NCBI RefSeq assembly: GCF_013415885.1
Contig: NZ_CP058910.1
Coordinates: 1,054,001 to 1,118,000, forward strand
Direction of reading: 5' to 3'
DNA length: 64,000 nt
Origin: Halosimplex rubrum
GTDB taxonomy: Archaea; Halobacteriota; Halobacteria; Halobacteriales; Haloarculaceae
The notes under the pieces were generated by a model. It was not told the DNA's origin. It was given only the letters and a program-made list of their open reading frames with translations, and made no database searches. Below are positions 52,061-59,747 of this stretch, one piece after another; within the stretch, counting starts at the first letter, position 1; every line of letters starts with the position of its first letter. Position numbers and translations under genes: made by a program.

Positions 52061-52930
52061 ATGAGCGGGGACGAAGCCAAACTCGTGGACACCTCGGGCG
52101 ACTACGCGTTCGTCGTCAGGGACGGCGAGCCGGTCGCGGAGCCGCGCTGGCGCTCCTCGCGGGTCGTCCTCACTAGCGAGCGACTGGTGTTCGCCGACGC
52201 CGACGGCAACCAGTCGTTCCCCCACGGCGCCGTCGAACTCGTCGACGACCCCGAGAGCGTGGTCCCCGAGGGGTTCCCCGCCGACGGCGCGACCGCGCTC
52301 CGCGCGGGCGACCACGCGCTCCTCGTCGACGCGCCCGACATCGAGGCCTTCGACCGGGAGTACTGCCGCGCGGCGCTGGACACCGAGGTCATCCTCGTCA
52401 AACACCCCGCGGTTGTCGGCGGCGTCGTCCAGGACACCGAGTGGTCGAAGGCCCGCTTTCGCTTCGCCGACGACACCGTCAAGCTCGCGCTGCCGGGCGG
52501 CCGGAGCACCGCCTTCCCCGTCTCGGACGTGGGCACCGTCGAGACGACCAGCCAGGGCGTCATGGGCACCCGGCGCCAGGTCGTCCAGCTCGAACACACC
52601 GACGAGGAGGGTCGCAGCGTCGAGACGCACTTCTCGGGCACCGAGGCCCACTGCCACGCGCTCGCCCATCTGTTCGAGGCCGTCGTCTCCGACCGCGGGA
52701 GCGAAGAGCACGAACTCACCGAGACGGAGAATCAGGTGTTGATGGCGCTCTATTCGGGCGTCTCGCCGTTCGAGATGAGCGACTTCGTCGGCATCAGCGT
52801 CGAGGAGGTCGAAGAGATCTATCAGAAGCTGCTGGAGATGGACGCCGTCGACGAGGTGCGCGTCCGAACGGAGGTGTCGCTCAACGCCCACGGCCGGAAC
52901 CTGGCGAGCGAAGCGATGAGCGAGCAGTAA
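52061..52930 (+). CDS. cheF: Taxis adaptor protein CheF (copy 1)
   Basis: 289 residues from ATG 52061. Two DUF439-type domains are visible: an N-terminal pair of PH-like halves (RSSRVVLTSERLVFAD; EVILVKHPAVVGGVVQDTEW) and a C-terminal helical part with ENQVLMALYSGVSPFEMSDFVG. The ending NAHGRNLASEAMSEQ is the segment copied at 53678. CheF binds CheY, CheD and CheC2 and links chemotaxis to the archaellum motor. The TATA element TTTATAT at 52022 is 33 nt before the ATG, so the leader is short. No other che or arl genes are in the window. Confidence 0.85.
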   Translation: MSGDEAKLVDTSGDYAFVVRDGEPVAEPRWRSSRVVLTSERLVFADADGNQSFPHGAVELVDDPESVVPEGFPADGATALRAGDHALLVDAPDIEAFDREYCRAALDTEVILVKHPAVVGGVVQDTEWSKARFRFADDTVKLALPGGRSTAFPVSDVGTVETTSQGVMGTRRQVVQLEHTDEEGRSVETHFSGTEAHCHALAHLFEAVVSDRGSEEHELTETENQVLMALYSGVSPFEMSDFVGISVEEVEEIYQKLLEMDAVDEVRVRTEVSLNAHGRNLASEAMSEQ

Positions 52931-52933
52931 CTG

Positions 52934-53135
52934 CTATACTTCCGAGAGATAGTCGTCGACGACTTCGACGAACTCGACGTATCGTTCGAGACTGTTCTGG
53001 AGCGCGTCGAACACGATGTCGTCGTTGACGATCGGGCCGTACGTGTGCGAGAGTTACGTCTCGGAACTCGATATCCTCGACGGCGTCGGCGATCCGGGTC
53101 GCGCGCTCGGCCGGCATCTCGTCGGTATCGTCCAT
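52934..53135 (-). pseudogene. Broken HepT toxin gene (frameshifted, N-terminally truncated)
   Basis: Frame 1 from ATG 53135 reads TDEMPAERATRIADAVEDIEFRDVTLAH. Frame 2 then reads YGPIVNDDIVFDALQNSLER and YVEFVEVVDDYLSEV to the TAG at 52934. The total of 202 nt is not a multiple of three, and the break lies inside the RX4HXY RNase-site region. The usual HepT is about 110-145 residues; here the N-terminal half is also missing. It directly follows an intact mntA antitoxin gene (5-nt gap), so it is a disarmed type VII cassette. Confidence 0.7.
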
Positions 53136-53140
53136 GCTGT

Positions 53141-53596
53141 TCAGACGGTCCTCGAATCCGCCCCGGCGTCGCGGCGGAGTCGCTCGACGGCCGCGGTCAC
53201 GCGGTCTTTCGCCGCTTCCGTCGAAAGGGACCCCTCAGTGAGTTCCGACTCCAGCTCGGCCCGCTCGGCTTCCGACCCGAGGACCGTCACACCGTGGTCG
53301 AAGGCGCTCTCTGCGAAGGTTTCCGGCATCGTCCGGACATCGACGATGTCGACGTCGAACGGGACTGCATCGGCGATCGCCGAGCGGAGGCGGAGGTATG
53401 CGTCGCTGTATCCCTCGTCTTCGGGATCGAGGTCCTCGAACGAGACCGCGAGGTCGAGATCGCTGTTCGGGCGTGTCCCGCCGCGTGCGACAGACCCGAA
53501 GACCATCGCGAACGAGACGCGGTTTCGCGAGAACTCCTCCCGGATCCGGGATAGCTCCGCCTCGTCGAGCGCGAGATCGGTTTCGGCACCGTCCAT
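53141..53596 (-). CDS. MntA-like antitoxin nucleotidyltransferase (partner broken)
   Basis: 151 residues from ATG 53596. GSVARGGTRPNSDLDLAV (34-51) is the minimal nucleotidyltransferase motif GSxARG...SDxDL, with catalytic Asp46 and Asp48, and VDIVDVRTMPE carries the third acidic residue. MntA antitoxins add AMP units to a Tyr of HepT. Its toxin partner just downstream is a pseudogene. CTAATAC about 27 nt upstream gives a leaderless promoter. It is a little longer than usual (extra C-terminal helix to residue 151). Confidence 0.82.
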   Translation of the reverse strand: MDGAETDLALDEAELSRIREEFSRNRVSFAMVFGSVARGGTRPNSDLDLAVSFEDLDPEDEGYSDAYLRLRSAIADAVPFDVDIVDVRTMPETFAESAFDHGVTVLGSEAERAELESELTEGSLSTEAAKDRVTAAVERLRRDAGADSRTV

Positions 53597-53677
53597 CGTC
53601 CTTAGTTCGTTCCTGTCGGTGTATTAGTGTTGGGTGCAGCAGTCGGACGGATTCGTCCGAGTTCCGTCCCAGCTATC

Positions 53678-53761
53678 GTCGACGGGGTCCGCGCCCGCAC
53701 CGAGGTGTCGCTCGACGCCCACGGGCGGAATCTGGCGAGCGAAGCGATGAGCGAGCAGTGA
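53678..53761 (+). repeat. Extra copy of the cheF1 3' end
   Basis: 84 nt aligned without gaps to the last 84 nt of cheF1 (52847-52930): 75 of 84 identical by my count. The copy keeps frame and ends in TGA where cheF1 has TAA; it encodes VDGVRARTEVSLDAHGRNLA then SEAMSEQ. Five of the nine differences are silent third-position changes and one is in the stop codon, so it comes from another functional cheF allele rather than from decay of a local copy. It lies between two MntA/HepT cassettes. Confidence 0.85.
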
Positions 53762-53823
53762 CGGTTCGTCGCGAAATTAAACTGGGCAGTACAATTATTT
53801 ACCGCGTGGCCGGATGATCGACT

Positions 53824-54258
53824 ATGGCGAAGTCGGGTAATCCGGAACTGCCGGGTGTCGACCTTGACGGGATGCGCGAGTACCTCGCGCAGACGGACGT
53901 GATATTTGCCGTCCTGTTCGGTTCTCACGCGCGTGGCACGCCGACCGACTCCTCGGATATCGACATCGCACTCCGCTTCCCCGACGACATGGACGACTAC
54001 GAACGATTCAAACGACGAAACCGGATCGATGCCACGCTTCAGCAGTACGCTTCGGGGTTCGTCGATGTGAGTAATATCGATGATCTGCCGAACCACGTGG
54101 CACACGCCGCGCTGCGCGACGGAATACCCATCGTCGGTGACGAACAGGCGATAGAGAACTACGAGGAACGAATCGCAGCCGAATACGAACGCGATCGGTC
54201 GGAGCGAGAACAGGAACGACGGGCATTCATCGACCGATTAGCACGAGGCGATGTCTGA
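53824..54258 (+). CDS. MntA antitoxin nucleotidyltransferase
   Basis: 144 residues. GSHARGTPTDSSDIDIAL (33-50) is the nucleotidyltransferase motif, with Asp45 and Asp47 as metal ligands, followed by VDVSNIDDLP. The tail is charged and helical. TATTTACC about 27 nt before the ATG gives a leaderless promoter. It directly abuts hepT (the stop is followed at once by ATG). Type VII antitoxins inactivate HepT by AMPylation. GC content is below that of the flanking core genes, consistent with recent acquisition. Confidence 0.85.
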   Translation: MAKSGNPELPGVDLDGMREYLAQTDVIFAVLFGSHARGTPTDSSDIDIALRFPDDMDDYERFKRRNRIDATLQQYASGFVDVSNIDDLPNHVAHAALRDGIPIVGDEQAIENYEERIAAEYERDRSEREQERRAFIDRLARGDV

Positions 54259-54687
54259 ATGGCCGACGAATCAGTCGTCACCGACAAACTCCAGCACGTC
54301 AACGAGTACACGTCTGATCTGAAGGAAATGCGGGGGATGTCGAAAGACGAGTACATGTCCGATGTTGTCGTTCAACGCGCTGTCGAGCGAACTTTCATGA
54401 ACTTGATCCAGTCCTGCATCGATCTCGCACAACACATCCGGGCATCGGAGAACCTCGAACCGAGCGGGACGGCCAAACAGGAGATCGAGGCGCTCGGGAA
54501 CGGCGATATCATATCACGCGGGACGCAAGAAAAGGTGGAAGAAGCTGTCGGGTTCCGGAACGTCCTTGCTCACCGCTATGGAGACGTTGACCACGATGTC
54601 GTCTACCGAACGCTCCACGACGATCTGCTGTGGTTCGAACGGTTCCAGCAGGAGGTCGCGCAGTGGTTCCAACAGTATCACAACTAA
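54259..54687 (+). CDS. HepT toxin ribonuclease (HEPN)
   Basis: 142 residues. The HEPN RNase motif RX4-6HXY is intact as R100-N-V-L-A-H105-R-Y107. The preceding helices (VVQRAVERTFMNLIQSCIDLAQHI, here quoted as RAVERTFMNLIQSC) are the usual HEPN bundle. It is immediately downstream of mntA, forming a complete type VII pair. It would cleave mRNA or tRNA when not AMPylated. Compare the broken HepT at 52934: this copy is fully open. Confidence 0.88.
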   Translation: MADESVVTDKLQHVNEYTSDLKEMRGMSKDEYMSDVVVQRAVERTFMNLIQSCIDLAQHIRASENLEPSGTAKQEIEALGNGDIISRGTQEKVEEAVGFRNVLAHRYGDVDHDVVYRTLHDDLLWFERFQQEVAQWFQQYHN

Positions 54688-54937
54688 CTCTCCCGTCGTC
54701 TATTTGGACGGTTCCAAAGCCGACACACTTCCGTGAACGTCCGCGGTCGCAGGTTCGTCAGTCCGCCCCGGCTGCCGGTTCCGACTGAGAGTGGCTCTGC
54801 TTTCACTCCGCGGCGTCGGAAGTCGCTGGCGGGTTCGAACGCTTTGCGCGACGACCGATTTCGCGAGGCGATAATCGGCCCGCAATGCCTATTGTCGACG
54901 GCCGAAAAGCCCCGACAATCGCGGTCGATCTCTCAGC

Positions 54938-55798
54938 ATGAGTAACTCGGAGAAGAAGGTGACGGACATGCAGGGGCGGTACATGCAGGCCGTCGCCGAC
55001 GGGCGCCAGCGCGACGACGCCGGCTGGCAGTCCTGTCGGATCGTCCTGACCACCGAGCGGCTGGTACTCGTCGCCGAGGAGAAGCTGACCGTCCCGCTCG
55101 CCGACATCGACGAGATCGGCGAGCGCTACGACGTGAACCAGCGCGCCGCCGGCGTGGCGAGCTACCTCGGCCTCCACGTCGGCGACGACGTGGTCCTCGT
55201 CTCCGGCGCCGACCACGACGAGTTCGAGACCGACTTCTACCACGCCTGTCTCAACGGGGAGGTACTGTTCGTCGACCACCCGGCCGTCGAGGGCGGCGTC
55301 GTCCAGGGCACCGACTGGACGAAGGCCCGTATCCGCATCACCGACGACGACATCCGACTGGCGCTGGCCGACGGCGAGCGCGTCGTCATCGAGCGCGACG
55401 ACATCGGCGAGGTCGAGGAGGACGAACGCCAGGCCGCCGGCGAACGGCGCCGCGTCATCGAGGTCGAACACAGCCAGGACGAGATCAGCGTCGAGACCCA
55501 CGTCACCGGCGGCGAGTACGATCTATCCGTCCTCTGGCAGGTGCTCGAAGAGGGCGTCGAGCGCAACCGCGCCGACCTGGATCTGGGCCCCGTCGAGGAG
55601 CAGGTCGTCATGGCCTTACACTCGGGCGTCTCCCCGTTCGAGATCCCCGAGTTCGTCGACAGCGAGGTCGAGGACATCGAGGCGATCTACGACCGGCTCA
55701 TCGACCTCGACGTGATCGAGGTGGTCCGCGAGCGCACCGAAGTGGAGATGACCGCTCGCGGGCGCTCGGTGGCCGGCGACACGATGGGCGAAAACTGA
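54938..55798 (+). CDS. cheF: Taxis adaptor protein CheF (copy 2)
   Basis: 286 residues, paralogous to the protein at 52061 along its whole length: CRIVLTTERLVLVAEEKL, EVLFVDHPAVEGGVVQGTDW, EEQVVMALHSGVSPFEIPEFV. The ending RTEVEMTARGRSVAGDTMGEN is copied at 56986 and 57767 (in part). Haloarchaea such as Halobacterium have two CheF proteins of which one is essential for taxis, so both may be functional. Start ATG 54938 follows about 250 nt without other features. Confidence 0.85.
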   Translation: MSNSEKKVTDMQGRYMQAVADGRQRDDAGWQSCRIVLTTERLVLVAEEKLTVPLADIDEIGERYDVNQRAAGVASYLGLHVGDDVVLVSGADHDEFETDFYHACLNGEVLFVDHPAVEGGVVQGTDWTKARIRITDDDIRLALADGERVVIERDDIGEVEEDERQAAGERRRVIEVEHSQDEISVETHVTGGEYDLSVLWQVLEEGVERNRADLDLGPVEEQVVMALHSGVSPFEIPEFVDSEVEDIEAIYDRLIDLDVIEVVRERTEVEMTARGRSVAGDTMGEN

Positions 55799-55804
55799 CG
55801 GCAC

Positions 55805-56281
55805 TCAGGGCGGATTCTCGGCGTCGTTGACTCCCTCCAGACTCTCGCATTCGTACGCGTTTCGCCACAGTTGAACGACTGCACGAGTGACCAGCGACAG
55901 TTCGGAGACGCCGATACACGAGGGTTCGACCGGTCGACTCGCGGCGTCCGGGGGCGGATGGAAGTGCCGTGTCGGCGCGTCGGGTTTGGGGTGGCAGTCG
56001 AAGCGGAAATTCCGATCGAGAGCGTCCGTGTAGTGGAACGCGTAGTTGCTTGACTGGCTCCAGCGCACGTCGAACCTAGCAGTCGACGCCTCCCCGATGC
56101 CGTCGGCGAGCTCGATCGAGAGTGTCCGCGGATTGAGCGGGTCGTCCAGCGACGCGGTCTCGGCCAGCGGTTCACGATCGACGAACAGACCGCGGATCTC
56201 GCGCAGCGCACTGGCGTCGATCGGTCCGAATGCTTCGGAGCGGTCATCGGTATCGTCCCTCGTCGAACCGTCGTCAGTCAT
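55805..56281 (-). CDS. TumE-like toxin (DUF6516)
   Basis: 158 residues from ATG 56281, which overlaps the upstream gene's stop. The middle reads YAFHYTDALDRNFRFDCHPKPDAPTRHFHPP, cut here to YAFHYTDAL and FRFDCHPKPDAPTRHFH. This is the Y-x-Y-H-Y ... FR-x-D-x-x-P-H-H ... H pattern of the TumE family. The N-terminus is acidic and disordered. TumE toxins pair with a winged-helix antitoxin, here the gene at 56278. Assignment is by motif resemblance. Confidence 0.62.
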   Translation of the reverse strand: MTDDGSTRDDTDDRSEAFGPIDASALREIRGLFVDREPLAETASLDDPLNPRTLSIELADGIGEASTARFDVRWSQSSNYAFHYTDALDRNFRFDCHPKPDAPTRHFHPPPDAASRPVEPSCIGVSELSLVTRAVVQLWRNAYECESLEGVNDAENPP

Positions 56282-56886
56282 ACGGGTAGCGACGAATCAC
56301 GCTGGCCGCCGTCCTCGTCGTCCCTCCCCGTGAGGTGGCCGTCGCGTCGCGCATCGGCGATCGCGAGCGCCGCCTGTGCGAGCGCGAGGTTGCGACGGGT
56401 CGTCTGCCACTCGGTGAGTACGGAGCCGCGTTCGCTGTCGGCGTCGGCCACGGCGAGTTCGCGGGCGAACTCCTCGGGCGAGTCGACGCCGTACGCCTCG
56501 CGCCACTCCCGGATCGTCGCCTTCATGTCGGCGATCCCGGCGCTGATCTCCTCCGTCGAACGGTCCTCCAGGAGTGACTGGGCGTGTTCCGTCACGATGG
56601 CCGTCTCCGACCGCCGATACAGCGTCGTCCCCCCGTCTTCGGTCGTCGCGACCTCGCCGGCGTCGGCGAGCGTTCGCAAGTGCTTGCGTGCGGTCGTCGG
56701 CGACGTGCGAGCACGCTCGGCGATTTCGTCCGCGGATTCGTCGTCGTATGTCCGTCGAACGACCCCGTAGACCCGTTCGAACGGCGTCGTCTCGTCGACC
56801 CACTCTTCCTCGACGGCCTCGTTCACGTCCCGGAAGTCGCTGGCTCCGTCTCCCCGCGGTCGATCCAGTGGGTCGTCTTCGGTCAT
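56278..56886 (-). CDS. Winged-helix antitoxin-like protein (DUF7342-like)
   Basis: 202 residues from ATG 56886. An N-terminal segment EEEWVDETTPFERVYGVVRRTY is followed by an HTH (SADEIAERARTSPTTARKHLRTLADAGEV; recognition part SPTTARKHLRTL) and a helical region (REWREAYGVDSPEEFARELA). In haloarchaea this family sits beside TumE-like genes. CTTATATTT (about 56909-56917) is 27 nt upstream, so the promoter is leaderless. The protein probably binds its own promoter as an antitoxin/repressor. Confidence 0.65.
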   Translation of the reverse strand: MTEDDPLDRPRGDGASDFRDVNEAVEEEWVDETTPFERVYGVVRRTYDDESADEIAERARTSPTTARKHLRTLADAGEVATTEDGGTTLYRRSETAIVTEHAQSLLEDRSTEEISAGIADMKATIREWREAYGVDSPEEFARELAVADADSERGSVLTEWQTTRRNLALAQAALAIADARRDGHLTGRDDEDGGQRDSSLPV

Positions 56887-56985
56887 CTACCGTCCCGTTG
56901 TTCGCACAAATATAAGAATGCACGGACCAGTATACTGATCCCGATCGCGCCTTCGCCGGCAGACCCGTACCATAGGGTCGGTTTC

Positions 56986-57075
56986 GACGTGACCGAAATG
57001 GTCCGCGAGCGCACCGAGATGGAGATGACCGCCCGCGGGCGCTCGGTAACCGGCGAGACGATCGGCGAGCAGTAG
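56986..57075 (+). repeat. Extra copy of the cheF2 3' end (first)
   Basis: 90 nt aligned without gaps to 55709-55798: 75 of 90 identical by my count. It encodes DVTEMVRERTEMEMTARGRS then VTGETIGEQ and keeps an in-frame stop (TAG). Substitutions are spread mostly over third positions and the last codons. It comes after the TumE-like cassette and before the RelE/RHH cassette. There is no start codon or upstream cheF sequence attached. Confidence 0.85.
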
Positions 57076-57116
57076 AAGATAGCAACAGCGTACGCGGTAT
57101 TGGATTCTGAACCGCT

Positions 57117-57404
57117 TCAATCATCGTCGGCAGTGTATGCACCGCTCCGATGTTCGATCCGGTGTACTTCCAGTATCTCCCCATCGCGATCGAGAACACA
57201 ACCCAGCCGATACTGGCCGATTCGCAGTTTCGAAAAGGGACCACCGGTCAGTGGTTCCAGATGGTCGGCGGGACTTCGCCATTTCGATTCCACGATTTCG
57301 TCCAGTTTCGAGGAGATCCGATCCTGCGCGTGAGTATCGAGTTGCTGGAACTGGTCCGCGGCCGCTGCTGTGAACTTCCACGTCTAGTCGTCTTCAGTCG
57401 CCAT
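57117..57404 (-). pseudogene. RelE/ParE-type toxin gene with amber codon 7
   Basis: From ATG 57404, which overlaps the end of the RHH antitoxin gene by 11 nt, codon 7 is TAG (57384-57386). Beyond it the same frame is open to TGA at 57117-57119 and reads WKFTAAAADQFQQLDTHAQD, RISSKLDEIVESKWRSPADH, LEPLTGGPFSKLRIGQYRLG, and ends RSGAYTADDD. This aligns with the intact RelE at 58126 from start to end. No usable start follows the amber until deep in the domain. So the toxin is disarmed by one base change, with its antitoxin intact. Confidence 0.8.
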
Positions 57405-57681
57405 CTTCGTCCATCATTGCGAGGACTTCCTCGCGGGAGACGAATTCGGTATCGTTCCGAAGTTCGTGTTCGCCCGCCGCGATCTGTTTCCAGCTCTCCC
57501 GCGTGAAGTCCGGGTGCTTCACGGCGTCGCGAGCGGCGTGTCTGAGGAACTCGCTACGGGAGTTGAACCCCTGTTCTTTCCACGTCGCGTCGATGTCCTC
57601 GAGGAACGTCTCGCTCAATCGGAGATTGACCTGCACCATCTCCGGGTCACTGGCCCCGTCGTTCGTGTCTGCGTCAGACAT
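57394..57681 (-). CDS. RHH (CopG-like) antitoxin of the amber RelE cassette
   Basis: 95 residues from ATG 57681. MVQVNLRLSETFLEDID and KEQGFNSRSEFLRHAARDAV form a ribbon-helix-helix DNA-binding domain. The C-terminal 30 residues (WKQIAAGEHELRNDTEFVSREEV, part: HELRNDTEFVSREEV) are the toxin-binding tail. It is homologous to the antitoxin at 57870. CATATAC about 27 nt upstream serves as the TATA element. It probably represses its own promoter. Confidence 0.82.
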   Translation of the reverse strand: MSDADTNDGASDPEMVQVNLRLSETFLEDIDATWKEQGFNSRSEFLRHAARDAVKHPDFTRESWKQIAAGEHELRNDTEFVSREEVLAMMDEDGD

Positions 57682-57766
57682 GCTATACAGATGCTTTACT
57701 CTCGTATATGCCTAAGGCTTTCCCCGACGGTAGTTCGTCGCTGCCAGCAGGGATTGGGCGCTCGAA

Positions 57767-57814
57767 ACCGCCCGCGGGCGCTCTGTCGCCGGCGACACGA
57801 TGGGAGAGCGGTAG
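57767..57814 (+). repeat. Extra copy of the cheF2 3' end (second, short)
   Basis: 48 nt aligned without gaps to 55751-55798: 38 of 48 identical by my count. It encodes TARGRSVAGDTMGER with an in-frame TAG. Except for the last sense codon and the stop, all differences are silent. It separates the two oppositely oriented RHH/RelE cassettes. Homology further upstream is not evident. Confidence 0.75.
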
Positions 57815-57869
57815 AGGGCTACGAGGTCGACAGTAGTGTTTTGTGTGTGCGTGACCGACGTACGTGCGT

Positions 57870-58142
57870 ATGTCAAAAGCCGATTCGGACGAGAACGATC
57901 CCGAGATCGACCGGATCAATCTCCGGATCTCCCGGTCGTTTCTCGACGTGGTCGACGAGACGTGGCGCGAGCGCGGGTTCAACAGCCGGAGCGAGTTCAT
58001 CCGATACGCACTACGCGATTCGGTGAACCATCTCGAGGGCGCGGGCGTCTGGAAAGACTTGGCGATTAGCGAAGCGCAATTTGACGAGGGGGAGGGAATT
58101 TCGAGCGACGAGATGCGGGAGAAGTATGGGACAGACGAGTGA
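57870..58142 (+). CDS. RHH (CopG-like) antitoxin
   Basis: 90 residues from ATG 57870 (a GTG two codons earlier is possible). RINLRISRSFLDVVD and RERGFNSRSEFIRYALRDSV are the ribbon-helix-helix; the tail EAQFDEGEGISSDEMREKYG should bind the toxin. A short dyad TACG-TG-CGTA overlaps the start region and may be part of the operator. It overlaps relE by 17 nt. It is homologous to the antitoxin at 57394 but in the opposite orientation. Confidence 0.85.
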   Translation: MSKADSDENDPEIDRINLRISRSFLDVVDETWRERGFNSRSEFIRYALRDSVNHLEGAGVWKDLAISEAQFDEGEGISSDEMREKYGTDE

Positions 58143-58419
58143 CGACGAGTGGGACTGGACGTTCTCTCCACGGGGAGAATCTCAGTTCGCACAGATAGAT
58201 CCGTCCACCCAAGAGCGGATAATGGACAAGCTCGACGAGGTTGTCTCGTCGGAGTGGCGAGAGCCAGAGGATTTTCTCGAACCGCTGACGGGTTCGCCCT
58301 ACCGGAAACTTCGGGTTGGCGGATATCGAGTGGGCTGTCGCCTGCTTCACGAGACGAAGACGCTCCGCGTCGAGAGCGTCCGGAAACGCGAGGGCGCGTA
58401 CAAAGGCGATGACGACTGA
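58126..58419 (+). CDS. RelE/ParE-type toxin
   Basis: 97 residues from ATG 58126. WTFSPRGESQFAQIDPSTQE, RIMDKLDEVVSSEWREPEDF, LEPLTGSPYRKLRVGGYRVG and ESVRKREGAYKGDDD show the compact RelE fold, with the basic Lys/Arg residues (K-L-R, Y-R, R-K-R) needed for ribosome-dependent mRNA cleavage or gyrase inhibition. It overlaps the antitoxin gene, as is common. Unlike the copy at 57117 it is fully open. Which target it has cannot be told. Confidence 0.83.
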   Translation: MGQTSDDEWDWTFSPRGESQFAQIDPSTQERIMDKLDEVVSSEWREPEDFLEPLTGSPYRKLRVGGYRVGCRLLHETKTLRVESVRKREGAYKGDDD

Positions 58420-58541: not shown

Positions 58542-59747
58542 ATGAGCATCGATACGGCGGTGGTCCTCGCGGCGGGTGAGGGGACGCGGCTGCGGCCGCT
58601 GACGCGCAACCGGCCCAAGCCGATGTTGCCGGCGGCCAACCGGCCGATCCTGGAGTACGTCTTCGACGCGCTGGTCGCGGCGGACGTACGGCGGATCGTG
58701 GTCGTGGTGGGGTACAAACGCGGGCGAGTGCAGGACCACTTCGGGCCGACCTACGAGGGGGTCGACGTGGAGTACGTCACCCAGCACAAGCAACTCGGCA
58801 GCGGGCACGCCCTCCTGCAGGCCCGCGGGGCCGTCGACGGGCCGGCGCTGGTCGTCAACGGCGACCGCGTCATCGACGACAACATCGTCCGCGACGTGGT
58901 CCGGGAGTTCGAGGCCAGCGGCGAGCCCTCGATGGCCGTCCTCGAACGGCCCGAGACCAGCCAGTACGGCGCGGTCGTCCTCCACGAGGGCGACGTGTCC
59001 GAACTCGTCGAGAAGCCCGAGACCGACGAGTACCGACTGATCAACGCCGGCGTCTACGCCTTCGAGTCGTCGGTGTTCGACGCCATCGACGCGACCGACC
59101 GCTCGGACGGCGAACTCGCGCTGACCGACACGATCGGCCGGCTCATGGACGACGGCCGGGTTCGCGGGGTCAGGACCGAGGGGATGTGGGTCGACGCGAC
59201 CTACCCCTGGGACCTGCTGACCGTCGCCGACGAGGTGCTCGCACGCGGGCACGTCGACGAGCCCGCTCGCGCCAGCGGCGGCAACGACGCCGACGTGTGG
59301 GTCGACCCGGCCGCGAACGTCCACGACGCCGCCGTTCTGCAGGGCCCGACCGTGGTCGGTCCGGACTGTGAGGTCGGTCCCGGCTCCGTCGTCGGCCCCA
59401 ACGCGGCCCTGGGCCAGAACGTCACGGTCGGTGCGAACGCGACGGTCAGGAACTCCGTGCTCGACACCGACACCCGGGTCGAGTCGGGGTCGACGCTCAT
59501 CGACGCGGTGACCGGCGAAGACGTGACCCTCGGCGCCGGGACGGTCGTGCCGGGCGGGCCCGCCGACGTGCGCGTCGGCCGGGAGGTATTCCGGGACCAG
59601 CGCCTCGGCGCCGTCGTCGCCGACCGCGTGACCGCCGAGGGCGACGCGAGTTTCTCACCGGGGACGCTCGTCGGCCCCGGCGCCCACATCGGGACCAGCG
59701 TCCGCGCGAGCGGACGCATCGCCGGCGGCGCGGAGGTGGTTCGCTAA
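58542..59747 (+). CDS. glmU: Bifunctional sugar-1-phosphate nucleotidylyltransferase/acetyltransferase (GlmU-like)
   Basis: 401 residues. The nucleotidyltransferase domain starts VVLAAGEGTRLRPLTRNRPK, continues with GHALLQARG and NGDRVIDDNIV, and has LVEKPETDEYRLINAGVYAF. The C-terminal half is a left-handed beta-helix of hexapeptide repeats (VWVDPAANVHDAAVL, VGPDCEVGPGSVVGPNAALG). It should make UDP-GlcNAc from GlcN-1-P, or a related nucleotide sugar. It is followed by glmS with overlapping stop/start (TAATG), which supports the UDP-GlcNAc pathway. Confidence 0.88.
   Translation: MSIDTAVVLAAGEGTRLRPLTRNRPKPMLPAANRPILEYVFDALVAADVRRIVVVVGYKRGRVQDHFGPTYEGVDVEYVTQHKQLGSGHALLQARGAVDGPALVVNGDRVIDDNIVRDVVREFEASGEPSMAVLERPETSQYGAVVLHEGDVSELVEKPETDEYRLINAGVYAFESSVFDAIDATDRSDGELALTDTIGRLMDDGRVRGVRTEGMWVDATYPWDLLTVADEVLARGHVDEPARASGGNDADVWVDPAANVHDAAVLQGPTVVGPDCEVGPGSVVGPNAALGQNVTVGANATVRNSVLDTDTRVESGSTLIDAVTGEDVTLGAGTVVPGGPADVRVGREVFRDQRLGAVVADRVTAEGDASFSPGTLVGPGAHIGTSVRASGRIAGGAEVVR

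Follow-up and report, generated by a model that had tools for sequence, protein, structure and literature searches.

How chromosomal toxin-antitoxin (TA) modules move without a transposon, phage or plasmid is an unsettled question. It is addressed here with a locus of the archaeon Halosimplex rubrum in which TA cassettes alternate with two cheF genes and with orphan copies of their 3' ends, called tails below. The window, the whole stretch of DNA that was analysed, is 64,000 nucleotides (nt) long and covers bases 1,054,001-1,118,000 of a 4.48-Mb contig. Several described systems come close. Nobusato et al. (2000), known through the papers that cite them, reportedly described the insertion of a restriction-modification (RM) unit with a long target duplication. 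Tyrosine recombinases integrate at gene 3' ends, Tn7 inserts behind glmS, and the displaced 3' regions of Rhs/CDI (contact-dependent inhibition) loci encode the variable toxin part. According to the available text of PMC3874152, PMC3031569 and PMC1643837, the insertion of RM units is accompanied by target duplications that are long and variable, about 100 bp. The available part of PMC5361080 describes type VI secretion system (T6SS) immunity arrays of Vibrio cholerae that grow by displacement, tentatively via homology-facilitated illegitimate recombination, and mentions Rhs/CDI arrays of orphan 3' ends with immunity genes.

The cheF locus resembles each of these in part. Like the RM insertions, as far as the available text on them goes, it has an addictive unit without a known mobile element, variable direct repeats of about 100 bp and insert-free relatives. 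Unlike them, it consists of TA modules in haloarchaea with no RM system, and the duplicated cheF stretch is a gene end with its stop codon last. Tails that resemble a donor's, together with native ones pushed downstream, also speak for recombination within the tail that both partners share. An RM-type event draws both copies from the resident target, whereas here the left tail is donor-like in one Halorhabdus genome (G074) and the cheF2 end of H. rubrum is divergent. Like the T6SS arrays in the accessible part of PMC5361080, the locus seems to take up a new module 3' of a conserved part and to shift older modules downstream, with no evidence of an integrase, and in one Vibrio case an effector 3' end was also shifted. 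There, however, the same text has the effector itself cut into and replaced, while cheF is whole and unrelated to the cargo. In lining up several displaced 3' regions after a single gene, the locus is like the Rhs/CDI arrays, but no separate function is known for the cheF tails. As with tyrosine recombinases and Tn7, insertion lies past the stop and leaves the gene undamaged, and what we take to be glmS is also a host gene here. Unlike those systems, there is no fixed core and the tails are long, and the search of the cassettes and of 15 of 18 open reading frames (ORFs) of an associated island gave no recombinase. No description of this pattern was found in the literature on TA mobility, target duplication, haloarchaeal TA and cheF, judged mostly at summary level, nor in the available parts of PMC2654758 and PMC4615327.

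Orphan cheF ends and their cassettes

We think it fairly probable that the stack arose by integrase-free integration of units made of a gene tail and a TA module, through host recombination in the shared tail. Comparison of the related genomes shows, at the level of sequence, recurrent insertion at the same stops, displacement of tails, an empty site and swapped tails. The features of the locus are as follows.

52061..52930, plus strand: cheF1, first host gene (Pfam CheF-arch 3.4e-51)
53141..53596, minus strand: mntA-type antitoxin, cassette directly 3' of cheF1 (NCBIfam MntA_antitoxin 3.3e-20)
53678..53761, plus strand: T1, orphan cheF1 3' end, 84 nt, now upstream of mntA/hepT (gap-free alignment to cheF end)
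53824..54258, plus strand: mntA antitoxin (NCBIfam MntA_antitoxin 2e-22)
54259..54687, plus strand: hepT toxin, type VII TA (NCBIfam HepT_toxin 8.7e-35)
54938..55798, plus strand: cheF2, second host gene (Pfam CheF-arch 2e-60)
55805..56281, minus strand: TumE-like toxin candidate, 6 nt past the cheF2 stop (Pfam TumE E=0.013, under cut-off)
56278..56886, minus strand: DUF7342 helix-turn-helix (HTH) protein, presumed antitoxin (Pfam DUF7342 6.3e-33)
56986..57075, plus strand: T2, orphan cheF2 3' end, 90 nt (gap-free alignment to cheF end)
57120..57401, minus strand: relE-type toxin, interrupted by one TAG (48% identity with the intact relE)
57394..57681, minus strand: ribbon-helix-helix (RHH) antitoxin (Pfam RHH_1 1.3e-4)
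57770..57814, plus strand: T3, orphan cheF2 3' end, 45 nt, ahead of RHH/relE (gap-free alignment to cheF end)
57864..58142, plus strand: RHH antitoxin (Pfam RHH_1 2e-5; homologues directly 3' of cheF2 in G091, G094 and G089)
58126..58419, plus strand: relE/parE-type toxin (Pfam ParE_toxin 5.3e-4, 21 bits, just below the cut-off of 23)
58542..59747, plus strand: presumptive glmU-like gene, right flank of the hotspot (cheF2-glmU order in 9/13 outgroup stretches)

Behind cheF1 stand the minus-strand mntA-type gene, T1 and the intact mntA/hepT pair; behind cheF2 stand TumE-like/DUF7342, T2, relE(TAG)/RHH, T3, RHH/relE and the glmU-like gene. This alternation had been proposed from the letters alone and is borne out by the Pfam and NCBIfam matches and by the three gap-free tails with their stops, as is the amber codon in the minus-strand relE copy. 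The MntA and HepT proteins of 53824-54687 pass the profile test for type VII TA (79.1 and 119.2 bits against an NCBIfam cut-off of 60), and by family profile the pair is a type VII module. The other mntA-type gene had been paired with a broken hepT at about 52931-53140 on the minus strand, but nothing intact or recognisable was found there, and a HepT search of the genome returned the intact copy only. The proposed TumE/DUF7342-like pair held for its DUF7342 member; the TumE-like candidate scores 15.9 bits against a Pfam cut-off of 23.4, and has a 72% identical homologue in H. salinum, 6 nt past a tail. The mntA-type gene next to cheF1 (53141-53596, minus strand), without a recognisable hepT, is possibly a decaying cassette.

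Each tail ends in a stop codon and aligns without gaps to a cheF end; the left limits are the analyst's choice and uncertain by a few nt. The sequence-only reading had called the differences between tails and genes mainly silent, which is only partly so, as third codon positions make up 5/8 differences to the tail's own cheF in T1, 8/13 in T2 and 6/8 in T3, and T2 carries several amino-acid changes. The scan for orphan ends covered 413 ORF-called genes of at least 120 aa in eight long stretches, namely seven Halosimplex genomes and G136. Halosimplex genomes in the comparison include the window genome (G000), its nearest named relatives H. pelagicum R2 (G093), H. salinum YPL4 (G094), H. aquaticum XZYJT29 (G089) and H. 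carlsbadense (G090), and two more, G091 and G092. Isolated orphan C-terminal copies came from cheF1 and cheF2, with six tails in three genomes: the three of the window genome, one in H. salinum and two in H. pelagicum. The scan also picked up a fragment resembling a transposase in G089 and a few weak hits (E 1e-5 to 0.01), which had low identity or fell inside another gene. Of orphan cheF starts or middles it gave just two weak candidates, with E 0.003 and 0.006. The orphan cheF tails are beyond chance, because isolated orphan ends among the 413 genes come almost only from cheF.

One further orphan gene end in the window genome, from a 391-aa gene, is a 65% identical copy about 30-40 kb beyond cheF2. 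Outside the window, at about 1,140,578-1,147,926 of G000:C1 (L135/L136), lies a decayed tandem duplication with internal deletions and blocks of 72-76% DNA identity. The orphan end of the 391-aa gene belongs to this long duplication, and its appearance is unlike that of the isolated cheF tails.

Beyond the eight long stretches, 115 further cheF genes were scanned (the cheF1 of G068 was entered twice, and some stretches are 5-8 kb, so distant tails could escape). The sole strong tail was that of the cheF1 in G003, a species of another genus (26 residues, 92%), with one weak 41% match in G005. A scan of 794 genes at 60 other loci of the family gave the tails of cheF1 (G003) and glmS (G023); in L170 and L187 it gave copies of 11 residues, and its other matches were weaker. 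Between cheF1 and its orphan tail in G003 (L176:1459-1740) lies an intergenic insert of about 190 bp with hairpin-like stretches, which has partial matches in a few other loci.

The spacing of the tails suggests what they are. T1 stands 62 nt from its mntA, and in G091 the cheF1 stop stands 63 nt from mntA; T3 stands 49 nt from its RHH gene, and three relatives have 47-50 nt between the cheF2 stop and RHH; the TumE-like gene begins 6 nt past the cheF2 stop here and 6 nt past the tail in H. salinum. The spacers 3' of the tails also align with the spacers 3' of the cheF stops. The near-constant spacing indicates that the tails are, as judged from these alignments, displaced native gene ends. They range from 45 to 162 nt and start between about -45 and -162, and in all six Halosimplex tails, as in G106 below, identity between the two copies ends at the stop codon or at most 3 nt away.

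The present end of cheF2 seems to have a different origin. Compared with H. pelagicum, its last 43 nt (55756-55798) have 10/43 mismatches, while the upstream part has 4/140 and 26/678, or 30/818 (Fisher test, p printed as 0.0000); genome pairs that exclude the window genome differ at 3-7 of these 43 nt. The last 43 nt or so look imported here, a weaker case than the Halorhabdus swap described below. Match counts were used in place of a tree because 45-90 nt carry too little tree signal, and by these counts other Halosimplex species are a closer match to T2 and T3 than is the cheF2 that now precedes them. In H. salinum, about 75 nt past relE align to H. aquaticum before the cheF2 tail starts.

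Relatives differ in cargo at these stops, and outgroups have the site without cargo, both as the sequence-only reading would expect; its central proposal of a hotspot for repeated insertion at cheF 3' ends, with gene-tail swapping, holds up. In 12/13 outgroup stretches the gap between cheF1 and cheF2 is no more than about 0.4 kb, the exception being G065 with a TA-like pair (HTH-nucleotidyltransferase/HEPN) between them. The outgroups have a glmU homologue 3' of cheF2 in 9/13 and uppP 5' of cheF1 in 9/13, and the complete order uppP-cheF1-cheF2-glmU-glmS in 6/13; in genus g3 of the same family, the cheF genes of many genomes are about 4-15 kb apart. (The glmU and glmS labels are presumptive.) The cheF1 gap holds mntA/hepT in G091, a RelE-like ORF without a Pfam match in H. 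salinum, a PIN toxin with a presumed antitoxin in H. aquaticum, and a YdjM gene in H. pelagicum, with a similar ORF in G090 and G092. Directly 3' of cheF2 stands RHH/relE in H. salinum and H. aquaticum and RHH in G091. H. salinum has the order cheF2, RHH/relE, tail, TumE-like/DUF7342, glmU, so that the two cassettes it shares with the window genome stand in opposite order.

In H. pelagicum the order is cheF2, a 24.8-kb island, a 162-nt tail, a TumE/HVO_A0114-HTH pair (TumE match 1.7e-13), an 81-nt tail, RHH/relE and glmU. The island (G093:C1, about 1,119,100-1,143,800; L126/L127) has the 162-nt cheF2 tail as its right boundary and is a surface-polysaccharide island with glycosyltransferases, an epimerase, sulfatases and ATP-grasp proteins. 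On the analyst's reading the left end of the island is also present in G090 and G092, where the surroundings differ further out, and the 60-80 kb read there holds no match to uppP or glmU.

The same layout behind other genes

Elsewhere in the family, several MntA/HepT loci have copies of the ends of adjacent genes at their borders. In G106 and G107 an MntA/HepT cassette lies 3' of a gene of about 327 aa, and in G103, with a 97% identical protein, the site is empty. The G106 cassette starts at the stop; 3 nt past the hepT stop the gene end is repeated over 96 nt, and DNA of the G103 downstream type then resumes.

Halorhabdus (genus g10, including G068 and G072-G074) offers the clearest exchange. 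A cassette is present in G072 and G074 and absent from G073. Between G072 and G074 the last 51 nt of the gene are identical (51/51) and the cassette of about 1 kb nearly so (984/996, 98.8%), against 821/945 (87%) in the rest of the gene and 362/400 in the native downstream DNA. The G074 gene becomes G072-like between -51 and -46, and its displaced right tail switches from G072-like to its own type within the same 6-nt interval; the first five differences past the switch are all at third codon positions. The identity contrast and the coincident switch points lead us to read this pair, from its alignment, as tail swapping.

Orphan glmS 3' ends bound a Fic-domain gene in G003 (L177:2816-6014) and, in G023 (L146:12100-13045), a cargo of a repeat-like insert and an 80-aa ORF. 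Further tails come from genes that we take to be amidohydrolase-like (L211) and chorismate-mutase-like (L209), and from others. A hotspot confined to cheF was rejected on account of these tails, and the idea of cheF as a special anchor does not survive them or the non-TA cargo: cheF is one frequent address, not the sole one. In L297 (1110-1918, G062) an RHH/relE pair has a copy of one gene start on either side (86 nt, 93%), a 5'-end counterpart of the cheF tails.

For an estimate of how general the layout is, direct repeats of at least 36 nt and at least 80% identity flanking the toxin were counted, leaving out loci under 3,150 nt (6/51 hepT, 1/30 TumE) and scoring 40 hepT loci of 4.8 kb apart. 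Such repeats flank 26/104 TA loci (12/45 hepT, 7/30 relE, 7/29 TumE), and were found in 9/889 control windows from cheF-derived loci and 0/29 Usp loci. They are 36-199 nt long, reduce to about 22 distinct repeats, and in 18/26 loci 0.72-1.20 kb separates the copies, roughly what a two-gene unit would occupy. An earlier flanking scan had given 7 hepT loci (full flanks) with repeats against 0/44 cheF loci, and 21/1312 windows in a control that included the Halosimplex stretches. A first scan for gene ends (19/91 vs 9/889) admitted spurious ORFs and was superseded by a stricter one, in which 9/91 TA loci and 2/889 windows matched, both control matches being glmS tails.

How the units may enter

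In the reading that we favour, with integration by host recombination in the shared tail, the donor would be a relative with a TA module already 3' of the same gene, and the unit would be the gene's 3' tail plus that module. It would enter cheF1 or cheF2 by homologous recombination of the host inside the shared coding tail. The host gene would stay complete but finish with the donor's tail, the TA module would come next, and the resident tail would be pushed downstream with everything beyond it; repeated entries would build the stack. Because both Halorhabdus switch points coincide, the commonest form may be a single crossover with a circular molecule of tail and TA. The first union of a TA module with a given gene tail would be an illegitimate event, and selection for an intact host gene and a retained TA module, probably held through addiction, would explain the survivors. 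Tails are perhaps short since longer repeats would recombine the cargo out.

Two other routes would leave similar traces. A TA module might enter by a staggered or replicative step that copies 40-160 nt of the target, as proposed for RM units, with the duplicated stretch including a gene end since only such insertions spare the gene. Duplications of that long and variable kind, about 100 bp, appear in the available text of PMC3874152, G103/G106 is compatible with a duplication of 96-99 nt next to a one-copy empty site in a close relative, and the L297 repeat covers a gene start, as a random target would permit. We nonetheless hold this route to be unlikely: a donor-like gene end with a displaced native one (G074; cheF2 here) is unexpected if both copies are native, and a random target would not explain why the two copies cease to match at the stop or no more than 3 nt from it in the six cheF tails and G106. 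A linear donor might instead be anchored in the cheF body while its other end joins the recipient's gene end with little or no homology, by homology-facilitated illegitimate recombination. The same stacking logic is found in the Vibrio T6SS arrays, in the accessible part of PMC5361080, and the variable tail starts, the H. salinum/H. aquaticum alignment of about 75 nt past relE and the displacement of older modules downstream of a conserved anchor (with near-constant spacing 3' of the tails) fit it. We give it a real but minor chance: the donor-like switch in cheF2 lies near -43 and T2 starts near -90, and the Halorhabdus switches coincide, positions that count against a one-pass replacement because the join must lie downstream of the anchor.

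It is very unlikely that mobile elements used the cheF ends as att sites and then decayed to TA genes. Insertion at the stop, the intact host gene and the tail-bounded 24.8-kb island of H. pelagicum would suit such elements, and the sequence-only reading had likened the tails to att duplications. Pfam scans of the cassette genes and of 15/18 called island ORFs (a 505-aa and two small ORFs were unscanned) found no integrase, though, and the tails, at 45-162 nt, vary in length, share no fixed core and occur behind several unrelated genes; on these grounds the integrase/att model was rejected. Tandem duplication of cheF-TA segments with later deletion of the gene bodies is, if anything, more improbable still, even if the H. 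pelagicum tails resemble their own cheF2 and a long decayed example with an orphan gene end exists elsewhere in the window genome. Unlike the long collinear blocks of that duplication, the cheF locus has no clear remnant of a cheF body or head, the stack holds different TA families, and elsewhere there is the clean empty/occupied pair G103/G106. For want of such remnants, decayed full-length cheF paralogues, the outcome named beforehand as refuting, were rejected too; what is seen is short tails with near-constant spacing.

Several observations weigh against integration through a shared tail. At cheF, the cargo is not always TA, as in the polysaccharide island, and no cheF tail is detectable 3' of the insertions in G091 and G089. 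Both orphan tails of H. pelagicum are nearest its own cheF2 by match counts, which leaves room for local duplication, and the last 43 nt of cheF2 are somewhat elevated in differences also in two pairs without the window genome (p 0.046 and 0.029). In Halorhabdus, the DNA upstream of the gene is 1361/1452 (93.7%) identical between G072 and G074, above the gene itself, so that divergence is uneven, and the donor-like start of the G074 right tail is one diagnostic site plus the shared junction. The window genome itself has a tandem duplication with an orphan gene end. Our confidence is held down by the single G074 site, the uneven Halorhabdus divergence and this duplication. As to generality, not every flanking repeat is a gene end: several are found at a gene start (L297) or where no gene end can be recognised, and in L305 and L249 they extend 45-46 nt beyond an ORF stop. 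In a local control with the 40 further loci of hepT relatives, repeats flank the toxin in 8/40 and an off-centre window in 9/80, and for curated gene tails the counts are 1/40 and 1/80. With 8/40 on the toxin and 9/80 beside it, TA neighbourhoods are therefore repeat-rich in themselves; part of the repeat excess reflects this, and generality is weakened.

The wider reading is tentative, and we hold it as a possibility somewhat short of an even chance: in haloarchaea, and perhaps other prokaryotes, an addictive two-gene cassette may travel without a recombinase together with the last tens of bases of a host gene, probably as a circle, enter that same gene in a different species through a single crossover, replace the gene end and stack on earlier cassettes. 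If true, this would be a homing-like system at gene ends driven by host recombination and addiction alone. It predicts junction circles and a transfer frequency set by tail identity. The comparisons suggest a double role, address and landing site, for gene ends of 45-160 nt. Short orphan gene ends beside TA modules can then be insertion footprints and not pseudogenes, the tails order the insertions and can point to a donor lineage, and cargo can bring with it a foreign 3' end for a core gene.

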